A DNA stretch of 64,000 bases, from positions 72,464,001-72,528,000 of the forward strand of contig NC_091262.1 of NCBI RefSeq assembly GCF_042477335.2, in the 5' to 3' direction. Source of the stretch: Ovis canadensis. Its lineage: Eukaryota > Chordata > Mammalia > Artiodactyla > Bovidae. Positions within the stretch are counted from its first letter, which is position 1; every line of letters starts with the position of its first letter. Below are positions 35,545 through 61,237 of this stretch, one piece after another. The translations under genes were made by a program, and so were the position numbers. A model generated the notes under the pieces. The model was not told the DNA's origin, did not search any database, and saw only the letters and a program-made list of their open reading frames with translations.

Positions 35545-36024
35545 CCATGAAAGCCTTACTGTGGCCCTTTTCTCCAGTTTCCCATTTCTTTTCTTGGCTT
35601 TTATAATAAAATTAGGAGATTGAACTGGAAGATCTGTAGCTCAGTTAATGGCTTCATGGAGTAGACAAAGCCACATGGTGGCAGATGCTGTGATCAGGCC
35701 TGACTACAGCTATTTTTTTCTAATTTTAGTCGCCAAGAAATTATTCTATAGTAGGTTAAAATAAAACACTAATTCGCACCAGGGAACAGTAAAGGGAGTG
35801 AAGCACATGACCCGTGGAGAATGTGTACTTGTTTTCCCAAAGACTTCATCTTGAAATAGAGTTCTGCTGAGTCCAGATACCAAGATGGTTTCAGTTAATA
35901 ACATAGGCTCTTAGAAACAGGCTTAAAATACCAGCCAGCTCATACAAACATCTCCTTAAAATAAGCTTGAATTTCATATGCAGATCCAAGAATGGCTCAA
36001 ATTAGCGCTTGAGAACAAGGGGGG

Positions 36025-36088
36025 ACACCCAGTGCCAATGTCCTGTGTGGATTCAGACACCCAGTGCCAGTGTCCTGTGTGGATTCAG
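36025..36088. repeat. 32-bp tandem duplication
   Basis: Two adjacent 32-bp units starting ACACCCAGTGCC, differing at one base (A or G). Next to the SERPINA10 stop codon. Confidence 0.95.
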
Positions 36089-36133
36089 ACACCTCGGATC
36101 GCTGTACCTCCAAGGACTCACGCGTGCTGTAAA

Positions 36134-36325
36134 TCACAGGAGAGTCGGATTCACCACCCGGCCCAGAAATAGCACGGTTCTGGAGGTTTCTTCATAGATG
36201 ATGAAGAGAAATGGCCGGTCCACTCTGATGATGGGAGGCATGTAATAAGCAGTGATTTCTAATAGGGTTCCTGCCATTGCCTCTGTACCTTCTTCATCCA
36301 CCTCAATCATAGCTCTTTGTAAAAC
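36134..36325 (-). CDS. SERPINA10: SERPINA10 last coding exon (reactive-centre loop and C-terminus)
   Basis: 192 nt in phase 0. The acceptor is TTTCCTAG and the stop TGA. It encodes VLQRAMIEVDEEGTEAMAG (hinge region), the reactive loop EITAYYMPP, and the conserved serpin end DRPFLFIIYEE and GRVVNPTLL. Confidence 0.95.
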   Translation of the reverse strand, partial: VLQRAMIEVDEEGTEAMAGTLLEITAYYMPPIIRVDRPFLFIIYEETSRTVLFLGRVVNPTLL

Positions 36326-38865
36326 CTAGGAAAGGAAATATGTGGAAGACAGTTTGTCTGCTCATGGAGAATAGGATTCACTGAATCCCTGAACACTTTT
36401 TGTTATGGTCCTTACCCACGGGGCTGTGCTCTCAGGATGTATTGGTATAGAGCTCATCTGCAGAGAGGAATGGTCTGTGGTTGCCCTAGCAACTGCCTCA
36501 GAAGCCCCTCAAACACCAGGAGACACAAGGAACCCAATTGTGAAGTTCATTCTGGCCAGGGACGTGAGGATTCTGTGGCTGGCCATTTCACACACACATG
36601 GATCAAATCAACAAATACTGAGCATGCACTTTGTGCTACTGATTTTTAAAAATATTTATTCATTTGGCTGTACCGGGTCTTAGCTGTGGCATGCAAACCC
36701 TTAGTTCCAGCATGTGGAATCTAGTTCCCTGAGCAGGGATCGAACCCAAGCCCCCTGCATTGGGAGTGTGGAGTCTTAACCAGTGGACCACCAGGTAAGT
36801 CTCTGTGTTACTGGTTTGTGAACTGAGCTGATATTCCTCCTGGAAGGTTTCAAGCTGTCTGGAACCCCTGAGAACTTTGACCTTCTTTCTGGCAGGCAAG
36901 GGGTGGGAGGGAGGTGGGGCAGGAATGTGGTTATTCTTCTGTAGCAGTTTCCTAGAACTTGGTACCACTCTAAAGTGTCCCCTGAGCAAGCCTCTGGGTC
37001 CTTGAAGTCTTTCTGAACTCAGGTGGCCTGGATATAGGCCACCTGTCCCGTTTGTGAGGCCCTTTTGTCCAAGAACCTCATGTGATGTGCGTAATGGACC
37101 TGTATAATTATTCTAAAAGAAGATAATGAAAACTGTGTTAATAATAATACCTAGACATTCTCTTAAGTTCCTGGAGTGAAAATTCCCTTCCTGGAGTAAA
37201 CAAAGGGAAAATATCAATAATTTAGAATTTAAGCTCTAAAACCAAAACACATTTCTTCAATCTTTCATGTGTTTGTAGCAGAAATGCATGTGTTGGATGC
37301 TATAGAGGCAGAACTAGGGACAAAGAATGTAAGTTGGGGGAATTACAGGTCAAAATATATATATGAATAAAACTCAAAAACAGTTTTTGCCATTTGTGGA
37401 TTGGGCTGCTTTCACTGCAAACATTAAAAAACAAAACTGGAAGATTGTTTTGTAGGGATATATCAGAGGGGGTTTTCACAAGAGGCAGGAAGTTAGGCAG
37501 ATAACCTCTGGGGTTTTCTTCCCTCTCCAAAGCAGTGGACTTCACTGGCAGTCAAGTGGTTAAGATGACCCTTCCACTGCAGGGAGTATGGGTTCAATTC
37601 CTGGTCAGGAAACGAAGATCCCCCATGCTGCAGAGTGCAGCCCCTCCACCCACCCAAATAAATGAATAAAACGGTAAGGTGGTGCAGTTTCATGGAATTC
37701 TAAGTGAATCTGTGAACCAATTCCATTTGGGGGTAAATTTCTCCTTAAGCACTGAGAAAGAAGAGAGGGAGCTCTACAAAAATTAGTTAAACAGATGTTT
37801 TAATAAAGTAGCTCCAAATTCTTCAAACATCCAGCTTAGGCGCTGTTTCAAGTCTTTGGGAATTTTAATCTAGTTTTCTACTACAAGGCTTCCCTTGTGG
37901 CTCAGCTGGTAAAGAATCCGCCTAGAGTGCGGGAGACCTGGGTTCCATCCCTGGGTTGGGAAGATCCCCTGGAGAAGGGAAAGGCTACTCACTCCAGTAT
38001 TCTGGCCTGGAGAATTCCATGGACTGTATAGTCTATGGGGTCCCAAAGAGTTGGACATGACTGAGTGACTTTCACTTTTCTACTACAACTTGGCCTTTTA
38101 TTGACATTCAGTGGAATGGAAAAATATTTGTTCTCTTAGACTCCCCTGAAAGAGCCTGACTTACCTTGGAAACTTTCAGATTTCTTTCAGTAACCGTGAG
38201 ATCCCTTAGGTCAGCCCAGGGTAAGAAGATTCTTTGGACTCCCATCTGTTTAAGCAGCTCATGCATCTTATACTTCTGGTCTAACTTGAACTTTGGAAAG
38301 AAAACTTCCATTTTTCTGTGATACAAGTACATATAATGGTGAACCATAGACAAAAATCTTAGATTCTGAACACTAAAAAGGTCACTTCACCTTCCTCCAA
38401 GATTATTCCTAGTAACAAGTCTCCTTCAGTTGACTGTAGCTCATTCTGCCCTTTTGTAATGGTCTGACTCAGAGAAGAGAGTTCTGACTTACCAAATATG
38501 TATTACTTCTGCTTCAGGAAACCAGTTTTATTTCCCAGTCAATGACTCACATTCTCTTTAGGAAAAGATGCCATACTTTGTCGGCCTGATGGGCTGCTGT
38601 CTGTGGGGTTGCACAGAGTCGGACACGACTGAAGTGACTTAGCAGATCAGCAGCCATACTTGTATCCATTTCCCTGTGTCTTAAAAACAACCCAACCAAA
38701 TATCTCCTGCAGTGAATTCTGCAGACTCCTGGAGGATGGCTGTTTCCAGTCCCTATTCTGCAGACTCCTAGGATTCCAGGAGAAACTTGGGAGTCTGGGA
38801 ATGGATGGGGGGAGGGGAAAAAAGGAAATTTTCAACCCCCTATTTATTTTTAGCCAGAGAAACTC

Positions 38866-38923
<58 letters not shown>

Positions 38924-41900
38924 ATCTAGCTAGAGTTGGCCAAAAAGCCCATTCAGGTCTTTCTATGCCACCTGTAAAGATGCACATTGGAGTTCTTACC
39001 CTTGTTTAGAAAGATGGATTCTGTGGCTCAAAAATAAAAGGATGTAAACTACTGACTGGTACTAAGTTAGTCTTAAAGAAGTCCCAGTGTCTTCATCTGT
39101 GAAGTACAGCCAAAATACCAATACGGATTTCAGCGTTCTTCAGAGGAGTCAATGACATAACATATGTTAAGCACCCAGAACAATGTCTGGTGTAGAGTAG
39201 AGGCCCAATGAATATTCATTTCCTTTTGCCCCCTCAACCCTTCTTTCTTCCTCTCTTGTAGAGCTGGGCAGGGCCCATACTCAGGACATGACAGGTCTTG
39301 AATATATAAATTGATGCACCTAAACATTTGTTGAGGGCTTACTACGTTGAAGTCCTTTGCTAGGCTCTAAGGATTTGAAGAAGAGGAATGAAGATAAAAT
39401 GAACACTGGGACCTTTAGCTGAACTCCCCTCTGCGTCAGATTCTAGAGTGACGGATTCAGGAGGCATCGCCTTGGCCTCCTTACTGGTGCTAACTTCCTT
39501 GTACCCTGACGGGTGGATTGATTTATTCCACAAGCATTTGCGAGCCTGCCCTGTGCTCCCACCCCTGCTCTCTGTGCTCAGCCTCCTCTCCAGGTCCTCG
39601 CATCTGGTCTCATGGTTCCATTTTTGTGCTGCTGACTCCCCAGCCTGGACCTCGCCCTGCACACACCAGATCCAGCCTTTGATATCCAGCTGTTGCCATT
39701 TTGATATCCCCACCCGGCTGTCTATAGGTATTTCTGATCCAGCTCTTTCCAGCTGAGCTTTTGCACATACCCCTCGGCATGTTCGTCCCACAGTCTCCGT
39801 TTTCAGTACGTGGCAAATCTTTCCAGTTGCTAAGGCCAAAGGCTTCATCTTTGACTCTCCCTCTTCTCTCTCACCCACATTCCAGTCCATGGGCCAATCC
39901 TGTGACTTCCAGGTTCACAGATCCAGGACCTGCTCCTCCTTACCTCCACTGCCACTACCTGCCGAGCATCCTGATCTGGGTGCTTACGCTGACCACGTGA
40001 CTGGTCCCCTTGCTCCTCCTACATGGCCCCAGTGTCTTTTCTTAACAAGCACAGACCATGTTGCCCCTCAGCCTGACTCCAGTGGCTTCTCATCTCTTTT
40101 GAAAAAGCCCATGTGTTTCCCAGGGCCTGTAATGTACAGTCCTGGGTGACGGCTGCTGGTTCCCCTGCAACCTCATGTCCAAACTGCTGCAGCCTCACCA
40201 GCCACCTCATTGTGCCTCAAACCCACCAAGCACACTCCTAACCCAGAACTTTCACACTTTTGCCTGTAACTCTTCTCTCTCCCAGGGCACCCTGACAGCC
40301 CTCCTTCATCTTAAGTGTTTGCTTACATCTATCTTCTTGGCCTGGCCTTCCCTGCTGCCCACCTACACCTCAGTAGAACGTGAGCTCCATGAGGAGGGCT
40401 AGCATCGCGCACGCATCACAATGCCTGACAAGTGGAAGAGCCTTGATAAGGACTGGCCGAGTGAACAAGGAGCCACGCAGTGTGATAGACAGTGACAGAG
40501 TGGAAAAGAGGACAAAGGCAGCCCCTGCCATCAGGGAGCCCACCGTGGGGCAGGACAGGCACAGAATGAAATTGGGAGTGCCCACAGGGAAGGAGAGGCT
40601 GAGCTGGGCGACAGGAGAGCCGTACCTGGTTTTCATGTTCCTGAGCCACGTGTCCACCAGGTCTGTGGTCAGGTAGTCTTCAAGGGTGAGATGGTCGCCT
40701 ATCCTCCCCATGAGGACCACCAGCATGGAGGCATTTCCTCGGTAGGGCAGCTTGAGGACATGGCAACCAAAATTCTTATCAAAAGTGGAGGCAAACTTGC
40801 CTGACCTGTACATCATGGGCACCTTGACCACCTTGTACTTGTCCAGGTAGAAAGTGTCCATTTCGGTAAGAGCAGGGTCAAAAGGGATCAGCCATTTCCC
40901 TGAACAGGTAAGAAAGGAACTCATTGTGGAAACGATCCTCCCCTAAAGCATCCTTCCTGCCAAAGTAATAAAGGGCCAGGGTTCCGTCCCCCTTTCTGCC
41001 CAACTAGGACAGGTATCCTTATTGGATTTGTTTTGACCACAGCTCAGGCAGTCAGGAGGAAAGCATGGCAACCCACTCCAATATTCTTGTCTGGAGAATC
41101 CCCATGGACAGAAGGGCCTGGGGGCCTATAGCCCATGTGGTCTCACAAAGTTGGACATGAGTAAAGTGGCTTAAGCATGCCTGGATGCAGGCAGCCGGAA
41201 TACATTTCCTAAAGATCAGCCTTTCCCAGGCTTCTTTCCAAACTGGCAAAAAATGAACCCAGGGACCTCCCTTGTCCTGTGGTTCAGAATCCGCCTTCCA
41301 ATGCAGGGGACATGGGTTTGATCCCTGGACCAATGCAGGGGACACAGGAAGATCCCACATGCTGTGGGACAACTAAGCCCGAGTGCCACAACTATGGAGC
41401 GTGACAAAACAGAGACCTAACAGCCAAAACTAAAGTGGTGAAAGTCGCTCAGTCGTGTCCGACTCTGCGACGCCACGGACTAAACAGTCCATGGAATTCT
41501 CCAGGCCAGAATACTAGAGTGGGTAGCCTTTCCCTCCTCCAGGGGATCTTCCCAACCCATGACTGAATCCAGGTCTTCCGCATTGCAGGCGGATTCTTTA
41601 CCAACTGAGCCATAAGAGAAGCCCATTACACACACACACACACACACACGCACACACACACACACACACAAATCTACCCAAAGGTCTGCTGGAATCACGC
41701 ACTGAAGCAAGGAGATGTCTCCTAACCACCTATGGCTCCCTCACGTTCTGGACAAAACACAGGGTGAGCAAAAGTCACTCATTCCAGATGATGCCCGAAG
41801 GACCCACTTCTGTCTACACTCATTTCCTTGTGGTGGGTTAGCTCCAACCTGGAGAAGACTTTGGGCCTGGCCACAGGCCTGTGTGCAGGAAGGGCTCTCT

Positions 41901-43458
41901 GACCACTCCTTTGGTGCATATAATGTGCAAACAGAGGCCACTGGGGCAGAAATGATGACATTGCCACCCATCCTGTGCTCAGTGAGGCTCAGGGGAGGGG
42001 CGCCTTGTCGACAAGCAGCCACACAACCCAGAGGAGGCCGCCAGCATGCAGGCACACAGCTCTACACACAGACATCTGTCTGGCCTGGCTCAATGAAAGT
42101 CCTCCTCCCGGACATTGCAAGCCCCCTGGTGTCACCTTCCTGCTACAACGGTGGCCATGCAAAGCCAGTGCTCCCTGAGAAAGGCAGGATGGAAAGGACC
42201 TGGGATGAACCCCTCATCTGAGGTCAGCTTCTGCTGTTTACCCTGTGACCTTGATCTAGCCAATTTCTCTGAGCCTCACTTCTCTATAGGAGGTGGGAGA
42301 GTCTGCATTTTCTATACTGAGAATCCAAGGCCAAGGGATTTTGTCACTTGCCCCAGGTCACAGAAGTAGAGGGTGAAGGAGCAAAGATGCAACCTTAAAT
42401 ATCTCAGATGATCAGAAACCCAGAAGGTTCCCCAGGTCTGAATGTCAGAGGAGAGCTGTGTAGATATGCTTAGAAAACTAGCAGTAAGCCCTGCAGGCAC
42501 GCAGGGGCCCCAGGGCAGGGGCATCAAATGGACACATTGTCTGGCGCTGTGCCCGGTACATCCTACCTGTTCAATGCATGTTTCAATCTGTTTGTGAAAC
42601 CTGAGAACAACATGTTCCTAGGAAATCCCTTGGCATCAACTGGACACAGGCCCAGCAGGAAAGGAAGAGACAGGCGAAGAGACCCACGGCTCTGGAAGAG
42701 CAGAATGTTATCCAAGTACCTTTGAACAAGATGTAATCCACAAGAATTAATCTGGTGTCAGGATTAATCTCATCAAAGAGTTTGGGAAGTTTCCCCTGCG
42801 TCTCTTGGTTCACGTAATGATTCATGAGCCTTTTGGCCTGGGAAGTGTTGCGAAAATTCACAGTCACACACTCCATATCGAAATACCTCTTGGAGAGATT
42901 GAGGAAGGTCTCTCTGATGTCAAAGTCCTTGTGGATGAAGGCGAAACTCCCCTGGGCCAGGCCCAGCTCTGGGTTATGGGAGAGGCTCTCTCGTAGCCTC
43001 TTGAAGAGGGCAGGCAGGCGCGGTGTTCGGGTCTGGTTCACCGCGGGCCGGGTCTGGTTCCAGGCCTGCAAGAGGAGTCCCTCCAGCTGGGCTCTGCTGT
43101 GCCCCCTGGCCCCCAGAGTCAACGCAGCCATGGCCCAGGCCAGGCCGAGGGGGGAGAACACCACGTTGCCATCATGCTTCAGGGAGATCTTACGTAGCAG
43201 GCTGAACCCCAAGTTGGAGGCCTCCCTGGAGAACTGCTGCCCCTTGGCTGACAGCCAGGGGGAGTCTTCCTCCCCCTTCTCCTCATCTGGAGCCCATGGT
43301 CTCTCACTGGTCTGGCTGGTCTTGTTTTGGGCCCTGGGGGTCAGCAGAGTCTCCAGCCCTTCCTGGGCCTCTGGCGAGTGGGAAGCAAGGGTGGAACCAG
43401 GCGCCAGCCACGCCTGGGCCAGGAGGCAGGCCAGCGGGAGGCTCAGCACTACCCGCAT
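36134..43458 (-). CDS. SERPINA10: SERPINA10, protein Z-dependent protease inhibitor (ZPI), complete spliced CDS
   Basis: ZPI is a liver-secreted clade A serpin that inhibits factor Xa (with protein Z on phospholipid) and factor XIa. The coding exons, in transcript order, are 43458-42720, 40899-40626, 38315-38165 and 36325-36134. All have GT-AG borders, and the lengths (739, 274, 151, 192 nt) are typical for the family. They give 451 residues against about 444 in human. Visible: a signal peptide (MRVVLSLPLACLLAQAWLAP), a modestly acidic N-terminal extension (DEEKGEED), the serpin core, and a reactive loop EITAYYMPP with P1 Tyr415. Residues I recall as protein Z contacts in human (the LDKY motif, Asp in LED) are kept. 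Oddities are a 7-residue insertion carrying two NQT sequons and Tyr in place of Ser at P1'. It is convergent with PPP4R4, as in other mammals. Confidence 0.95.
36648..36802 (-). mobile_element. CHR-type tRNA SINE
   Basis: Antisense: TTTGGCTGTACCGGGTCTTA, GAGCAGGGATCGAACCCAAG, TGGACCACCAGGTAAGTC. Confidence 0.8.
37538..37675 (+). mobile_element. CHR-type tRNA SINE
   Basis: GGACTTCACTGGCAGTCAAG head, GGGTTCAATTCCTGGTCAGG, and a tail CCAAATAAATGAATAAAA. Confidence 0.75.
37886..38084 (+). mobile_element. Bov-tA SINE
   Basis: GGCTTCCCTTGTGGCTCAGC to GACTGAGTGACTTTCAC. TTTTCTACTACAA on both sides is a 13-bp target-site duplication. Confidence 0.94.
38165..38315 (-). CDS. SERPINA10: SERPINA10 coding exon (MEVFFPKFKLD... 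to LKVSK)
   Basis: 151 nt. The acceptor is TGTATCACAG and the donor AAG|GTAAGT. It encodes KMEVFFPKFKLDQKYKMHEL, then LPWADLRDLTVTERNLKVSK, the segment before the hinge. ZPI-specific text. Confidence 0.94.
38580..38660 (+). mobile_element. Bov-A2 SINE tail fragment
   Basis: GGCCTGATGGGCTGCTGTCT to GACTGAAGTGACTTAGCAG. Only the 3' end remains. Confidence 0.8.
38869..38919. repeat. (TC)n microsatellite
   Basis: 51 bp of uninterrupted CT dinucleotides. Confidence 0.97.
39560..40430 (+). mobile_element. L2 LINE relic
   Basis: GACTCCAGTGGCTTCTCATC, CTTCATCTTAAGTGTTTGCT, and the tail AACGTGAGCTCCATGAGGAG fit the L2 3' end. Open frames here are chance. Confidence 0.6.
40626..40899 (-). CDS. SERPINA10: SERPINA10 coding exon (KWLIPFDPALTEMD... 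to NMKTR)
   Basis: 274 nt. The acceptor is CCTGTTCAG and the donor AG|GTACGG. It encodes KWLIPFDPALTEMDTFYLDK, VPMMYRSGKFASTFDKNF, GNASMLVVLMGRIGDHL and TLEDYLTTDLVDTWLRNM. The LDKY and LED motifs correspond to the protein Z-binding residues I recall for human ZPI. The NAS sequon in GNASML is the usual serpin site. Confidence 0.95.
41058..41182 (+). mobile_element. Bov-A SINE fragment
   Basis: GGCAACCCACTCCAATATTC to GTTGGACATGAGTAAAGTGG. Confidence 0.85.
41262..41430 (+). mobile_element. CHR-type tRNA SINE with internal duplication
   Basis: GGACCTCCCTTGTCCTGTGG head. CCAATGCAGGGGACA occurs twice (about 41298 and 41331), a local duplication around the B box. Confidence 0.75.
41432..41625 (-). 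mobile_element. Bov-tA SINE
   Basis: Antisense: GTGGTGAAAGTCGCTCAGTC to ACTGAGCCATAAGAGAAGCC. Its head directly abuts the (CA)n run. Confidence 0.92.
41628..41671. repeat. (CA)n microsatellite
   Basis: 44 bp of CA repeats with one CG interruption. Confidence 0.97.
42720..43458 (-). CDS. SERPINA10: SERPINA10 first coding exon (signal peptide to LVDYILFK)
   Basis: 739 nt from ATG at 43458-43456 to the donor AAAG|GTACTT. The ATG is followed directly by a typical signal peptide. An acceptor (CTTTTCTCCCAAG) about 37 bp upstream puts the exon start near 43495. It encodes an N-terminal extension with NKTS, then the serpin core (FSLLRKISLKHDGNVVFSP, QGSFAFIHKDFDIRETF, FRNTSQAKRLMNHYV, KLPKLFDEINPDTRLI). 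Residues 134-147 read NQTRPAVNQTRTPR, a duplicated block absent from the human protein as I know it. Confidence 0.95.
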
Positions 43459-54418: not shown

Positions 54419-54682
54419 TTAGGGGGAGCCCTCCCACCCCTTTCTGTGGGCTCTGGGTGCCCGCGTCAGACGCAGCTTGGCTCCTGGGAGTGCACCTTCG
54501 GTCGGATTCACAACCTTGCCCAGGAAGAGGCTGCTCCACGTGAAGTCGTCGAAGATCATGACGATGAAGGGCCGGTTGAAGCGGAGGGTGAGCGGCCCGG
54601 GCGCTGCGCTCACGCTGACCCGGGTAGGGGCGGCCGCCTCCAAGCCCTTCTCATCGACCTGCAGCGCGGCCTTGTGGACCAC
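54419..54682 (-). CDS. SERPINA6: SERPINA6 last coding exon with C-terminal extension
   Basis: 264 nt (87 codons plus TAA). The acceptor is TTCCCACCAG. It encodes the hinge [19 protein letters not shown], a reactive-loop region [17 protein letters not shown], and the conserved end [17 protein letters not shown]. Human CBG stops right after NPV. Here the frame runs on through [16 protein letters not shown] to a TAA, adding a basic, Arg-rich tail. I recall that the ovine CBG entry is also about 25 residues longer than human, so this is probably a real ruminant feature. Confidence 0.92.
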
Positions 54683-57600
54683 CTGGTGGGAACAGACCCG
54701 GCAAGGAGGATGAGTACCGGCTGCATGGGCGGAGCTTTCCGAGCTCCACCGCCTCAGCTCCTCGCACCCTCGGTTTTCTGGACTGCAAAGCTGTGGCTCA
54801 GAGAAGGGCACTTACTGATCCCTCATCTATGCGGCAGCCCCCGGACTAGCGCTGGAATCTGTCCACCCCCCGGACCCAGGTCACACCTAGGCTGCCTCCC
54901 TAGAAAATCGGCAGGTGGAGCCCACCAACGGAGAGAGAAAGACTTGGGGCTGAAACTGGAGCTCAGCATCCATACTGGGCGTCCCTTACTGGGTCCTGCG
55001 CTGGTGGACGGAGACCTCGTTCCCTCTTCACTTTGCCGGTAAATACGAGGGTTCGATTTATGCAAAAGGGTTGTACCCACTCTGTAGGGGAAAGGGTCAT
55101 CTGTGACTTCTCAAACATCCCTAGTTATAATCAAAATTAGAAGATATTCTCAAGCTGGTAAAACTCTTGAGTGGCTTGTATCAAAAGCCTTGGACGGATC
55201 AGAACTGGCTGATTAAATAACACCACCTATGGGATAGGATGGCTTCCCTGGTGGCTCGGTGGTAAAGAATCTGCCTGCCAATGCAGGAGATGCAGGTTTG
55301 ATTCCTGGGTGGGGAAGAGCCCCTGGAGAAGAAAATGGCAACCCACTCCAGTATTCTTGCTGGGGAAATCCCATGGACAGAGGAGCCTAGCGGGCTCCAT
55401 GGAGCTGCAAGGAGTCAGACATAACTTAGCAACTAAACAACAACAACGAAGGGACAGGACTCTCCTAGATGGAGCAGCTGGGAATCAGAGGCTCAGAGCA
55501 CTCTGAAATGAGGCCCACGTGGCTAGGGAGAAGCTGAGCTGGGCTAGGAACCCCTGCAGTGTGTCCTGGGAATATGAGGTTTTGAGTTAGCCTGTTTACT
55601 GCCTCTGTGACCTTGATGAGTCATTCACTCTCCCAGAGATTCCTCCTCTGAGAAACTGGGGTTGCAGCCACCTTGTAAGGTGGTAGCGGTCTGACTGAGT
55701 CCTTCACACACAGGCACTGCTGAGCGCATACTGTGTGCCAGGCATCACAGTGGTCAAAGTCTGCGTGTATGAGGGCAGGGGCTTCTCTCACTCTCCTGTC
55801 CGCCCCACCCCCCTTCTTTTTTTGTCATCCACAGGATGGTAAGATCCTGCGAGGGCAGGGCCACATCTGAGGCATCTCTAGTGTCTAGCCCAGGTGGGGA
55901 CACATAGAACTTGCTCTGTAATATTTCTGAATGAGTGACAGAACCTAAAGCTGAAGGGTGGAGATTCAGTGTGATCTCATGCAGACCCTTTCTTTTGCTA
56001 GCAGTCCTGCCGTGACGACTTTGTCTTCTGCAGAGCCCCCTCTGTGTGGCCTGGCAGAACAGGTGGACGCTGGACTGTGCTACTGCTTTGTCCCCAGCTT
56101 CCTGTGTGACCTTAGGGAGGTCACCTTCTTGCTGAGCCTCCGTTTAGCCTGTTGTAAACTGGAGGCTTGGAGAAGACCTCTCAGCCTGGGGTCTAGTGAC
56201 CTGTTCATGGGTGGGCTCTGTGTTGCTTATTATTGTTTGTACTGTGAATTTTGGTAGAGGGGGAAGGAGGGGCTGTAAAGACACCTACCTTTGACACCTT
56301 CGGCAGGGCCTCTTGGGTGATGCCTGAGAAATGTGTCCGGTTGCTGAGCAAGTCTGCAATGCCCATATCCCCCATGATGCCCCCAAGGTCGTAGGCTCCA
56401 GAGATGGAGATCTTTGGGATGTACAGATCCACCTGGCTGCTTGGGTAAGCAGATGGGGTTAGACTTTCCTGGGCTGGGCCTGATCAGCCAGACTCCCGTT
56501 TCCCCTGGGATGCCCCTGCCTCCCTGCTGGACCTGCTCTTTGGGGACAGAGGAGGGGACAGGGCAGGAGGCAGGATCTGCCTCTCCCTGCAACACACAAG
56601 CAGCTTCTTCTTTGGGCCTCTGAATTGCAAAGTCCTTTCTTCTCAGCTCTTTCTTGGAGCTGATTCCACTCAATCCAGCTAAACTCTTGGACCCTGAAGG
56701 AAAGAATCCCTAAAGAAATCCTTGTGGACAAGAGAAATAAAAGCAAAAATGAAAAATAGGATCAAACAAAACAGAAGTTTTTGCACAGCAATGGAAACCA
56801 TAAACAAAATGAAAAGACAACCTATGGGGTGGGAGCAAATATTTGCAAATCATGCTACCAACAAGGGCTTAATTTCCAAACTATACAAACAGCTCATGCA
56901 GCTCAATATCAAAAAACCAAATAACTCAATCGAAAAAATGGACAGAAGACCTCTATAGACATTTTCCCCCAAGAGACATACAGATGGCTAACAGGCACAT
57001 GAAAAGATGCTCAACACTGCTAATTATTAGAGATATGCAAATCAAAACCACACTGAGACATCACCACACACTAGTCAGAATGGCCATCATTCAAAAAGTC
57101 TGTGAATAATAAGTCTGTAAATGCTAGAGAGGGCATGGAGAAAAGGAAACCTTCCTACAGTGTTGGTGGGAATATAAGTTGGTTTAGCCACTGTGGAAAA
57201 CAGTATGAAGTTTCCTTAAAACACTAAAAAGTTATCATATGATCCAGCAATCCCACCCCTGGGCATATATCCAGAGAAAACTCTTAATTTGAAAGGATGG
57301 CTGTACCTCTATGTTCATTGTAGCATTCTTTACAGTAGACAACACACCCTAAGTGTCTTTCAACAGATGAATGGATAAAGAAGATGTGATATATATATGC
57401 AATGGAATATTAGTCAGCCATGAAAAAGAAAGAATTAATGCCATTTTCAGCAACATGGATGGACCTAGAGAATATCATACTAAGTGAAATGTCAGATAGC
57501 AAAAGGCAAATACTATATGATATAATTTATATGTGGAATCTAAAAATAATACAAATGAATTCATTTATAAGGCAGAAAGAGTCTCACAGACATAGAAAAC

Positions 57601-60526
57601 AAACATTGTTACCAAAAGGAAAGGGATGAATTAGGAGTATGGGATTAACAGATACACACTGCCATATATATTAGATAAACAACAAGGATTTACTCTATAG
57701 CACAGGTGACTGTATTCATTATCTTGTAATAACCTATAGTGGAAAAGAATGATAAAAGGATATATAAACTGAATCACTTTGCTGTACACCTGAAACTAAC
57801 ACAATATTGCATATCAACTGTACTTTAATTTTAAAAAGAAAAAAAAAAAGTCCTGTGGAACTGCAAGCATCCCCTGGGAGAAATGGAGTGGAGGGAGCAG
57901 GCAGCTGGGAGCAGCAGTCCTGGCCCCAGCCGTGCTGCTAATGCTTTGTGGCTTTAGCCAAGTCCCATCCCTTTCTGTGCTTGTCCTCATCTACACCACA
58001 CAGGGGAGAGAAGATGCCTGAAACCCTGAAATCAGTGATAAGGCCCACGCTGTCCATTGTGGAAGGAAAGGCTGGAGAGCTGCTCTGCACTGAGCACAAG
58101 CCACCCTGGGGAGGACTGGAGGCTGCCAACCTGGGGAACTGAGGAGGAGCCCAAGGCCAGCGAGATGTGGGACTTCTCTAGATGAGCAGTGGCAACAGAA
58201 GGTAAGGGAGGCAGTCCCATACCAGGCAGCTCCTGGCTCACCTTCCTGACCTCCTATACCTCACCTAATCTGCGCAATCTTACAAAGTGGAGTCAACATC
58301 TTCAATTTCCAGATTGAGAGACTGAATCTCAGAAGCTGAGGAATTTCTCCAGAGTCACACCCCTGGGAAGCAGCAGGACTGTGAAGAAACCAGGACTTGT
58401 TGCCTTGGAGCCCCACTGCCCTACCCCGAGAGCTGTCACCATGACCTGCCGGCAGCAGGCAGGTGACAGCTGAGCAAGGGGACCCGGGGGAAGGCTCTTG
58501 TGAGAGCACCTTGTGAGTAGGGCCCAGGGGCTTCCAGTGGGAGGTGGGGTATCAGCTGGGCTCTGAAGGATGCTGAGCTCAGATCCATTGGAGAGCATGG
58601 TGGGAGGGGTAGTGATGCTGGGAGTGGTGAGAAGTGAGAAGTGACCACGTGAGTGTGGAGGTGAGGAGCCGTGGGTGACATCATTGGAATAAAGTAGATG
58701 CCCAATCACATATGATGTCCAAAGGTGCAAAGTTTTACCTTGAATGTTTATTTTTTAAAAATCTAGATGAAAATGGCACATGTTACTGGTGAATGTTGTT
58801 TTAAAGTATTTTAGTTTAGAGATTATTTTTGGAGTAAAGAGAAAGGGTATCCTTTGTCTCATTTTCAATACATCAGGGTTTAGAATTTGAATCACAGAGT
58901 ATTATCACCACCTGGTGGGGCTGTACCTGAATTACAGGGTCCCTTCGAGGGGTGAGGGTGAGGGAGGGAGGGATGGGACGGTTGACCAGAAAAACTGGCA
59001 AATGGGTCCCAACTATTGACCAAACATGTGGGGCTTCCCCAGTGGCTCAAGCAGTAACGAATCCACTGCAATGCAGGAGACATGGGTTTGATCCTTATGT
59101 TAGGACGATCTCCTGGAGGAGGAAATGGCAAGCCATGCCAGTATTCTTGGCTGGAAAATCCCATGGAGAGAGGAACCTGGCATTCAGGGGGTTGCAAAGA
59201 GTCAGACAAGACTGAGCACACGATGGATGGATGGATGGATGGATGGATGGATGGATGGATGGATGGATGGACCAAACACAGGCTCACATGCACACACCCT
59301 GAAGGGAGAGATGGTTGGTCCAAGGACACTAAGAATGCCTTCCATGGCCCCCATGTGGCTCTGGGGATCTCTGGAACACAGAGCTCTCTTCCCTGAAGGA
59401 GAATGCCCTAGGACTTCCTGTCCACTCTGGAACTGGATTAACCTCTCCAGAAGCACCAGGACTCAGCAGCTCTCTAAGAGGAACATTTATAATAAAAAGA
59501 ACCCCAAACCATGGAACACAAAACCTTTGTTTATAACAAAGTAGAAGAGCTTCTTTCTAGATTTTTCTGCCAGCAAAATTCTTGGATTACCAAGTTCATC
59601 TAAGAGGGATTTGGCTTACCTCTGCTGCTGATGGTGCTCGGGTCCTGGCCTCCCTGACTTGGCTGGTGCTGTTACCTCTTCCACCTGTGATCCTGGGGTG
59701 CTTTGTGCTGACTGAACTTCTACTCAGGCTTAAGGCTCAGTTCAAAGTGAAAGCCTTCCGCTCTGTAGCCCCTTCCCCAGTTTCCTGGGGCAGAGTCCAG
59801 TTTCCTACCCTCCTTCAAGTTTTATACATTATGCCTCTCCTTCCCTCTCTTGCTCTGACAGAGCTTACATCACTGTACCACTAATAATTCCACTAGAATC
59901 TGCTTTCTTCTCTAGAGTACATCCCTTCTGCTTAGCCTAGTGTGTTGTACATAGCAGTTGCTTCCACATATGGATACTGAATGACTGGATGGATGAATGA
60001 AGGACATGGTGATTAACTTAATCAGGACAACTTCCTGATTAAGAAGGACCCCCCTTTGTGGAATGCCCCAGAGCATCCCTGTGTCAATCAACACGTGGAT
60101 AAACAAGTGTGACTTCCAGGTCAGAGAACCCAGCACACAGGGAAACAATAAGCCCCGGAGGGCAAGTCTAGGGGTAGAAGGATAGCTGGATGGATCCCTT
60201 TTCTTCTCGCCCCACTTTCTGGGATCTGCAGAAACTCAGTTGGCTAAGGGCTTACCTCATGGTTAGGGACTTGGACCACCTCTGAATGGTGTCCCGGCTC
60301 AGCGCGGTGATGACCGAGTCCATCTTCCCCTTGACTGGGAGCACGAAGAAGACAGTCTCATTGCCTGTATAGTCCAGCTGTACCAGCTGGCAGGGGAGCA
60401 CCGAGTCGTTCAGGTACTTGATGGTGTTCGACTGGAACATCACGGGCACCCGCACTGTCGTCGCCTCATTCACATAGAAGTTCTCTTCTCTGGTGCTTTC
60501 CAGGTCGAAGGAGTGCGCCCACATGC
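54419..60526 (-). CDS. SERPINA6: SERPINA6, corticosteroid-binding globulin (CBG), last three coding exons
   Basis: CBG (transcortin) is a liver-secreted, non-inhibitory clade A serpin that carries cortisol in plasma. The coding exons, in transcript order, are 60526-60256, 56436-56289 and 54682-54419 (271, 148 and 264 nt). All have GT-AG borders and joining phases. Diagnostic text: [31 protein letters not shown] (the conserved steroid-site-linked sequon), [32 protein letters not shown] and [14 protein letters not shown] (with the Trp of the steroid pocket). The C-terminus continues 26 residues past the human end. The first coding exon, with the signal peptide, must lie beyond 64000. Neighbour order PPP4R4 - SERPINA10 - SERPINA6 agrees with other mammals. 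Confidence 0.94.
54683..56288 (-). other. SERPINA6 intron 4
   Basis: Contains a Bov-tA (55243-55437), MIR/L2-like text at about 55575-55935 and MIR-like text at 56060-56180. 54690-55240 appears unique. Confidence 0.5.
55243..55437 (+). mobile_element. Bov-tA SINE
   Basis: GGCTTCCCTGGTGGCTCGGT to ACATAACTTAGCAACTAAAC with an AAC-rich tail. Confidence 0.92.
56289..56436 (-). CDS. SERPINA6: SERPINA6 coding exon ([10 protein letters not shown]... to LPKVSK)
   Basis: 148 nt. The acceptor is ACCCAAGCAG and the donor AAG|GTAGGT. It encodes [20 protein letters not shown], then [19 protein letters not shown]. The sequon is NRT, shifted by three residues from the NFS sequon of human CBG as I recall it. 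Confidence 0.94.
56735..57852 (+). mobile_element. L1 3' end
   Basis: L1 ORF2 end and 3' UTR: CAATGGAAACCATAAACAAA, GGGAGCAAATATTTGCAAAT, AGAGATATGCAAATCAAAAC, CCAGCAATCCCACCCCTGGG, CCTGAAACTAACACAATATT, then an A-rich tail. 5'-truncated. Short similar flanks (TCCTTGTGGA and TCCTGTGGAA) may be the target-site duplication. Confidence 0.88.
59032..59221 (+). mobile_element. Bov-tA SINE
   Basis: GGCTTCCCCAGTGGCTCAAG to GTCAGACAAGACTGAGCACA, followed at once by (ATGG)n. Confidence 0.9.
59223..59270. repeat. (ATGG)n microsatellite
   Basis: Twelve perfect ATGG units at the 3' end of a Bov-tA SINE. Confidence 0.97.
60256..60526 (-). CDS. SERPINA6: SERPINA6 coding exon ([13 protein letters not shown]... 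to WSKSLT)
   Basis: 271 nt. The acceptor is CTCTCCCCAG and the donor AG|GTAAGC, the usual length for this serpin exon. It encodes [56 protein letters not shown] and [11 protein letters not shown]. Sequons are NET (conserved) and NDS (in YLNDS, not in human as I recall). Confidence 0.95.
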
Positions 60527-61237
60527 CTGGGGAGAGGAGGGGCGGGGAGGGGAGGAAACAGGCCTGTGAGAGCAGGAGGAAGGCACAGCTTGGGTGGCAT
60601 CAGCGCACCAGGGATGACCACCAAACAAGTCAGGCAGTGGCCTCCTCAACCGGGAAGGTCCTCACCAGAGCTGCTGGAACTTTGTGCTAGGATGTGAAAT
60701 TCCCAGAGGTGTAAAGCCTGCTCCATCCTCCTTTGTGATACACTGCAGATTAGTATGCTTTCTGAGACTGACTTTTAGAAATGGAAGGAGAGAGAAAACA
60801 GAGAATGCCGGTCCGGGGATTTGGGAGTAGCATTCAGTACACTAGACTTTGGATTGAGTGGATCTTGGATTGGAGGGCTCTGAAGTAGTGCTGGGGGAAC
60901 TGATCAACTATTCCATCCTCACTCCCTGATGTCCTGGCCACAGAAGCACAGCAGGCAGCCTGGTCACCCAGTCAGTCGTACCCACTTTCCTGCAGGCAGC
61001 TCCTCCCCTCCTGAGTGGTCCCAAGGGCCACAGCACATTTCCTAGAGACAGGATCAGGGTGAGATGAGTCCTTCAAGGTCTCAGACTCCCATCCCCACCT
61101 GGACTCATATCCCCTTCACCACATTCCACCACAGCATCATGCAATTTGTTTGTTCCTCTTGTGATGGGGAACTCACTACTGTAACTGATGGGACTTTCCA
61201 CTACTGGTCAATACTGATGGGAAGGAAATTGCTCCTT

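Follow-up and report, generated by a model that had tools for sequence, protein, structure and literature searches.

A 21-bp in-frame repeat carrying two N-glycosylation sequons in the helix C-D loop of sheep SERPINA10

The SERPINA10 gene and its surroundings

The window analysed here, a 64,000-nucleotide stretch of Ovis canadensis DNA, carries an apparently intact SERPINA10 (ZPI) gene on its minus strand. The coding exons listed in Table 1 join into a frame of 451 amino acids without an internal stop, and all three introns between them have GT/AG ends, the junctions having been placed by frame and alignment. Searches of exon 2 against PDB returned human ZPI chains as best matches (E-value 2.2e-73), followed by mouse ZPI (4.4e-66), with the next relative at 9e-18; the nearest solved relatives are ZPI, which identifies the gene product. 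The reactive-loop segment contains ITAYYMPP, as read from the translation rather than from a tool alignment to human ZPI, and may include the Tyr that ZPI has at P1 of its reactive loop. Six N-glycosylation sequons are found in the sheep protein, at positions 45, 134, 141, 187, 204 and 302. A search for exon 2 as host contamination in viral contigs and in genome contigs gave 8 and 41 pattern matches, respectively, none of which was confirmed as a relative. Three albumin exons from this assembly (75, 66 and 72 residues) are identical to PDB chain 4luf, sheep serum albumin, over all 213 residues, while chain 5ori, the goat protein, shows six differences by hand count; this fits sheep or a very near relative.

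Several other features were observed near the gene. Window positions 36024-36093, immediately beyond the stop codon of SERPINA10, are occupied by a tandem repeat with a period of 32 bp (2.2 copies at 97% matches), which may fall within the 3' untranslated region. Two minus-strand serpin exons lie in the region 54500-60527 of the window, at 60527-60255 and at 54682-54500. They presumably represent SERPINA6 exons 3 and 5, with exon 2 of that gene situated past the window end.

Table 1. Coordinates of SERPINA10 coding exons and repeat features in the window
Feature	Position	Strand	Remarks
SERPINA10 coding exon 2	42720..43458	-	Start codon at 43458; ends ...YILFK G/GTACTT; PDB matches to human and mouse ZPI; Pfam serpin; splice site placed by the authors
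SERPINA10 coding exon 3	40626..40899	-	Contains the equivalents of K260, R305, K308 and R310; R263 is Gly
SERPINA10 coding exon 4	38165..38315	-	Placed by frame and alignment
SERPINA10 coding exon 5	36134..36325	-	Reactive-loop segment and stop; ZPI C-terminus, presumed from frame continuity
First 21-bp unit, best register	43049..43069	-	Encodes approximately QAWNQTR; 16/21 match to second unit
Second 21-bp unit	43028..43048	-	Encodes approximately PAVNQTR
12-mer copy with first NQTR	43049..43060	-	Exact match
12-mer copy with second NQTR	43028..43039	-	Exact match
Asn134 codon	43057..43059	-	Aligned to human Lys113
Asn141 codon	43036..43038	-	Second sequon; exact gap position relative to human ambiguous

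A 21-bp repeat in exon 2

Two exact copies of the 12-mer CGGGTCTGGTTC, spaced by 21 bp, occur in exon 2 where an earlier note on this DNA had placed them. The minus strand reads ...LQAWNQTRPAVNQTRTPRLPALF... across this region, giving the protein sequence LQAW-NQTR-PAV-NQTR-TPRLPALF, and the NQT sequons at Asn134 and Asn141 (precursor numbering) are as that note described. The Asn, Gln and Thr codons are identical in both units, while Arg is encoded by CGG in one and CGA in the other. The 21-bp repeat as such stands, but the unit proposed for it (NQTRPAV/NQTRTPR) is not the best one, since this register matches at 14 of 21 bases compared with 16 of 21 when shifted to the left. In the better register, the units correspond approximately to QAWNQTR and PAVNQTR (15 of 21 bases in the exact codon register, counted by hand). 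The exact 37-base repeat stretch has a single occurrence in the assembly.

The repeat is short and imperfect. Mismatches between the two units are bunched in one half, the matching bases mostly forming one 12-base block, and Tandem Repeats Finder reported no array at this site at its lowest threshold. Based on 2000 dinucleotide and 2000 codon shuffles of 720 bases of exon 2, an exact run of at least 12 bases at an offset of 9-60 was reached in 12 dinucleotide and 10 codon shuffles; a one-period tandem score at least as high as the observed one, for periods of 15-30, came up in 17 and 20, respectively. Taken alone, the repeat is thus moderately unlikely to have arisen by chance (about 0.5-1%). 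It becomes more convincing than the shuffles alone suggest because its period equals the extra loop length relative to human and mouse ZPI, at the same place.

Loop length and age of the insertion

Loop length was counted as the residues between the Gly-Leu that follows helix C (Gly-Phe in A12) and the Phe of helix D. The helix C-D loop comprises 23 residues in sheep ZPI and 16 in both human and mouse ZPI. Alignment bore out the statement in the earlier note that human ZPI (PDB) has LQALKPTKPGLLPSLF here and is seven residues shorter than the sheep protein. Within the same genome, the loop has 15 residues in SERPINA1, A6 and A11, and 13 in A12; SERPINA1 and A6 were identified by their best PDB matches, and the names A11 and A12 are our assumption from gene order. 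The 200 kb searched also contain a diverged serpin-like exon (G000:C18:72683438-72683839), whose helix C-D region is off the usual pattern and which was left out of the count for this reason. With short loops in four paralogues as well as in human and mouse ZPI, an insertion is likelier than a deletion, and the seven extra residues of the sheep loop are probably derived.

Between the two units, 5 of 21 sites are different (interval 8-47%). With 2.2e-9 substitutions per site and year as the assumed rate, the probability of at least five differences is 0.003 at 10 My and 0.04, a marginal value, at 20 My, these figures being rough as the register was chosen as the best one and the sites are coding. 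This rough clock predicts that the repeat is common to other pecorans.

Heparin-binding sites

In human ZPI, heparin binding has been mapped to helix C (K104, R105, K113, K116) and helix H (K260, R263, R305, K308, R310), according to the part of PMC9190012 available. Lys113 and Lys116, which the earlier note had named as heparin-binding, both belong to the mapped site, and their alignment to Asn and Arg in sheep ZPI was confirmed, with positions counted from the printed alignment to chain 4afx. That note had missed K104 and R105, which are absent too: the four human residues K104, R105, K113 and K116 correspond to Glu, a gap, Asn and Arg in sheep ZPI, although the gap could shift one position either way. 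Three of the four helix C positions (104, 105, 113 and 116) are therefore not basic. By alignment, mouse ZPI lacks all four basic residues, and PMC9190012 (2022), in its accessible part, describes the helix C site as not conserved in other vertebrate ZPIs. A loss or weakening of the site special to this lineage, as had been proposed, is thus not supported, and human ZPI may be the exception in having it.

At the helix H site, with numbering taken from chain 4afx, where Arg310 is the last aligned residue, four of the five residues are kept in sheep ZPI, all but R263, which is Gly; in mouse ZPI, R263 is kept and 305 is Gln. A segment picked by eye, bounded by the end of helix C and the beginning of helix D, has a net charge of +4 in human ZPI, +2 in mouse ZPI and +5 in sheep ZPI. 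Since the repeat adds arginines, the sheep segment is not poorer in charge, so that any weakening of heparin binding may depend on the presence of glycans.

Sequons in the helix C-D loop of clade A serpins

Asn134 and Asn141 of sheep ZPI lie in the same helix C-D loop as sequons of SERPINA1 and A11 from the same genome, both of which read GFNLTE. Counted from the printed alignment, the Asn of the SERPINA1 loop sequon falls opposite chain position 83 of human alpha-1-antitrypsin, and Asn83 of that protein is stated to be glycosylated in the portion of PMC9741788 consulted. As far as these sequences indicate, it is nothing unusual for a clade A serpin to have a sequon in this loop. The sequon is not constant, since there is none in A12 of the same genome. 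Separately, the loop sequon was observed to be absent from SERPINA6 of the same genome (G000:C18:72529571-72530032), which reads FSLVE where human corticosteroid-binding globulin has FNLTE.

Evidence on how such glycans might act comes from antithrombin. The glycan at Asn135 is reported to hamper heparin binding or lower affinity, yet the same source, in the part available, describes it as thought to slow the conformational change rather than to block initial heparin binding (PMC4813732). The accessible text of PMC7825591 further indicates that added glycans mostly left antithrombin activity undisturbed. Glycan masking in sheep ZPI is a plausible conjecture. A literature search for glycan studies of ruminant ZPI yielded none that were recognised among the matches listed, judged mostly by titles and abstract openings, and a search for four loop peptide strings gave no matches.

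Origin and possible effects of the longer loop

The reading that we consider likely is a lineage-specific, tolerated loop insertion that arose by a 21-bp in-frame tandem duplication, doubling one sequon with a mild effect. The helix C-D loop of ZPI in the sheep ancestor would already have contained one N-Q-T sequon, a state to which the repeat points. A 21-bp in-frame tandem duplication, in preference to another type of insertion, would have copied this sequon and extended the loop by seven residues, resulting in two N-X-T sequons seven residues apart. By likeness to SERPINA1, whose sequon lies in the corresponding loop, the extended loop would be exposed and its sequons glycosylated. The consequences would be mild, possibly affecting size, charge and half-life, with somewhat less heparin access; this is expected because heparin binding is not a conserved property of the helix C-D loop. 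Inhibition by sheep ZPI that depends on protein Z should be intact. The duplication is supported by the 21-bp period with 16 of 21 matches, the longer loop and the open frame, as read in one genome; against it are the bunching of the 5 mismatches in 21, the silence of Tandem Repeats Finder and the shuffles that reach 0.5-1%.

These same weaknesses of the repeat would suit an unrelated 21-bp insertion that happened to resemble its neighbour, given that comparable scores were reached in 10-20 of 2000 shuffles and that the matched bases are largely one 12-base block. Such a coincidence is nonetheless very improbable, as it leaves the agreement between period and extra loop length at the same place to chance, together with the unchanged repetition of the Asn, Gln and Thr codons (Arg being CGG or CGA). 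The long loop might instead be old and common to many laurasiatherian mammals, primates and rodents having lost seven residues. The 5 differences between the 21-bp units exceed the expectation for an event younger than 10 My at the assumed rate of 2.2e-9, so the event may be old, but four paralogues in the same genome are also short-looped and the extra residues resemble a repeat of their neighbour, which makes this history unlikely.

A stronger functional outcome of the same duplication would be that both sequons are occupied and that the sugars, together with the loss of K104, R105 and K113, abolish heparin activation, leaving protein Z as the main cofactor. Three of the four helix C site residues being non-basic (the fourth is Arg), the replacement of R263 of helix H by Gly and the Asn135 glycan of antithrombin that is reported to hamper heparin binding (PMC4813732, in part) all point in this direction. 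We nevertheless regard it as improbable: the loop has three Arg and the segment exceeds its human and mouse counterparts in positive charge, four of the five helix H residues are retained, and the antithrombin literature, as far as the available parts of the sources go, holds that the first contact with heparin is not believed to be blocked by the Asn135 glycan (PMC4813732) and that extra glycans are mostly harmless to activity (PMC7825591). Moreover, weak heparin binding can be explained without masking, as mouse ZPI lacks the helix C site without having loop sequons.

Beyond the duplication, ZPI residue 113 might act as an evolutionary switch, at which an Asn with a glycan, retained and duplicated in the lineage of sheep, would close the loop to heparin, and the human Lys would open a high-affinity site. 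Asn could be the older state at this position, since the Asn codons are one base away from Lys (human 113) and Ser (mouse 113) and Gln114 is common to mouse and sheep. Drawn from three ZPI sequences, this idea is a speculation that we hold to be quite improbable. For ZPI, which acts as an anticoagulant, activation by heparin has been mapped in the human protein. If sugars sit at the position of the human heparin site in sheep ZPI, results on heparin and ZPI would not be transferable between people and sheep models unchecked. The sheep protein also offers a natural variant for asking if the helix C site of human ZPI was gained recently.

Comparison with known serpins

Human ZPI (SERPINA10; PDB 3F1S, 3H5C and 4AFX) is the product of the same gene and the nearest solved relative, sharing K260, R305, K308 and R310 with sheep ZPI. 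It differs by a loop that is seven residues shorter and has no sequon, by the presence of K104, R105, K113 and K116, and by R263, which is Gly in sheep. Mouse ZPI (PDB 4AJT) resembles the sheep protein in the absence of helix C basic residues (4/4 in mouse, 3/4 in sheep) but has a short loop without a sequon, keeps R263 and carries Gln in place of R305. Outside ZPI, SERPINA1 (alpha-1-antitrypsin) likewise has an N-glycosylation sequon in its helix C-D loop, at Asn83; there it is single, belongs to a loop of 15 residues and, by hand count, stands closer to helix C than Asn134 by three residues. Antithrombin (SERPINC1), with its alpha and beta forms differing at Asn135, is the example of a serpin in which a glycan is reported to lower heparin affinity (PMC4813732, part available); in contrast to ZPI, its heparin site is on helix D (PMC9190012, accessible part) and its activation proceeds by conformational change.
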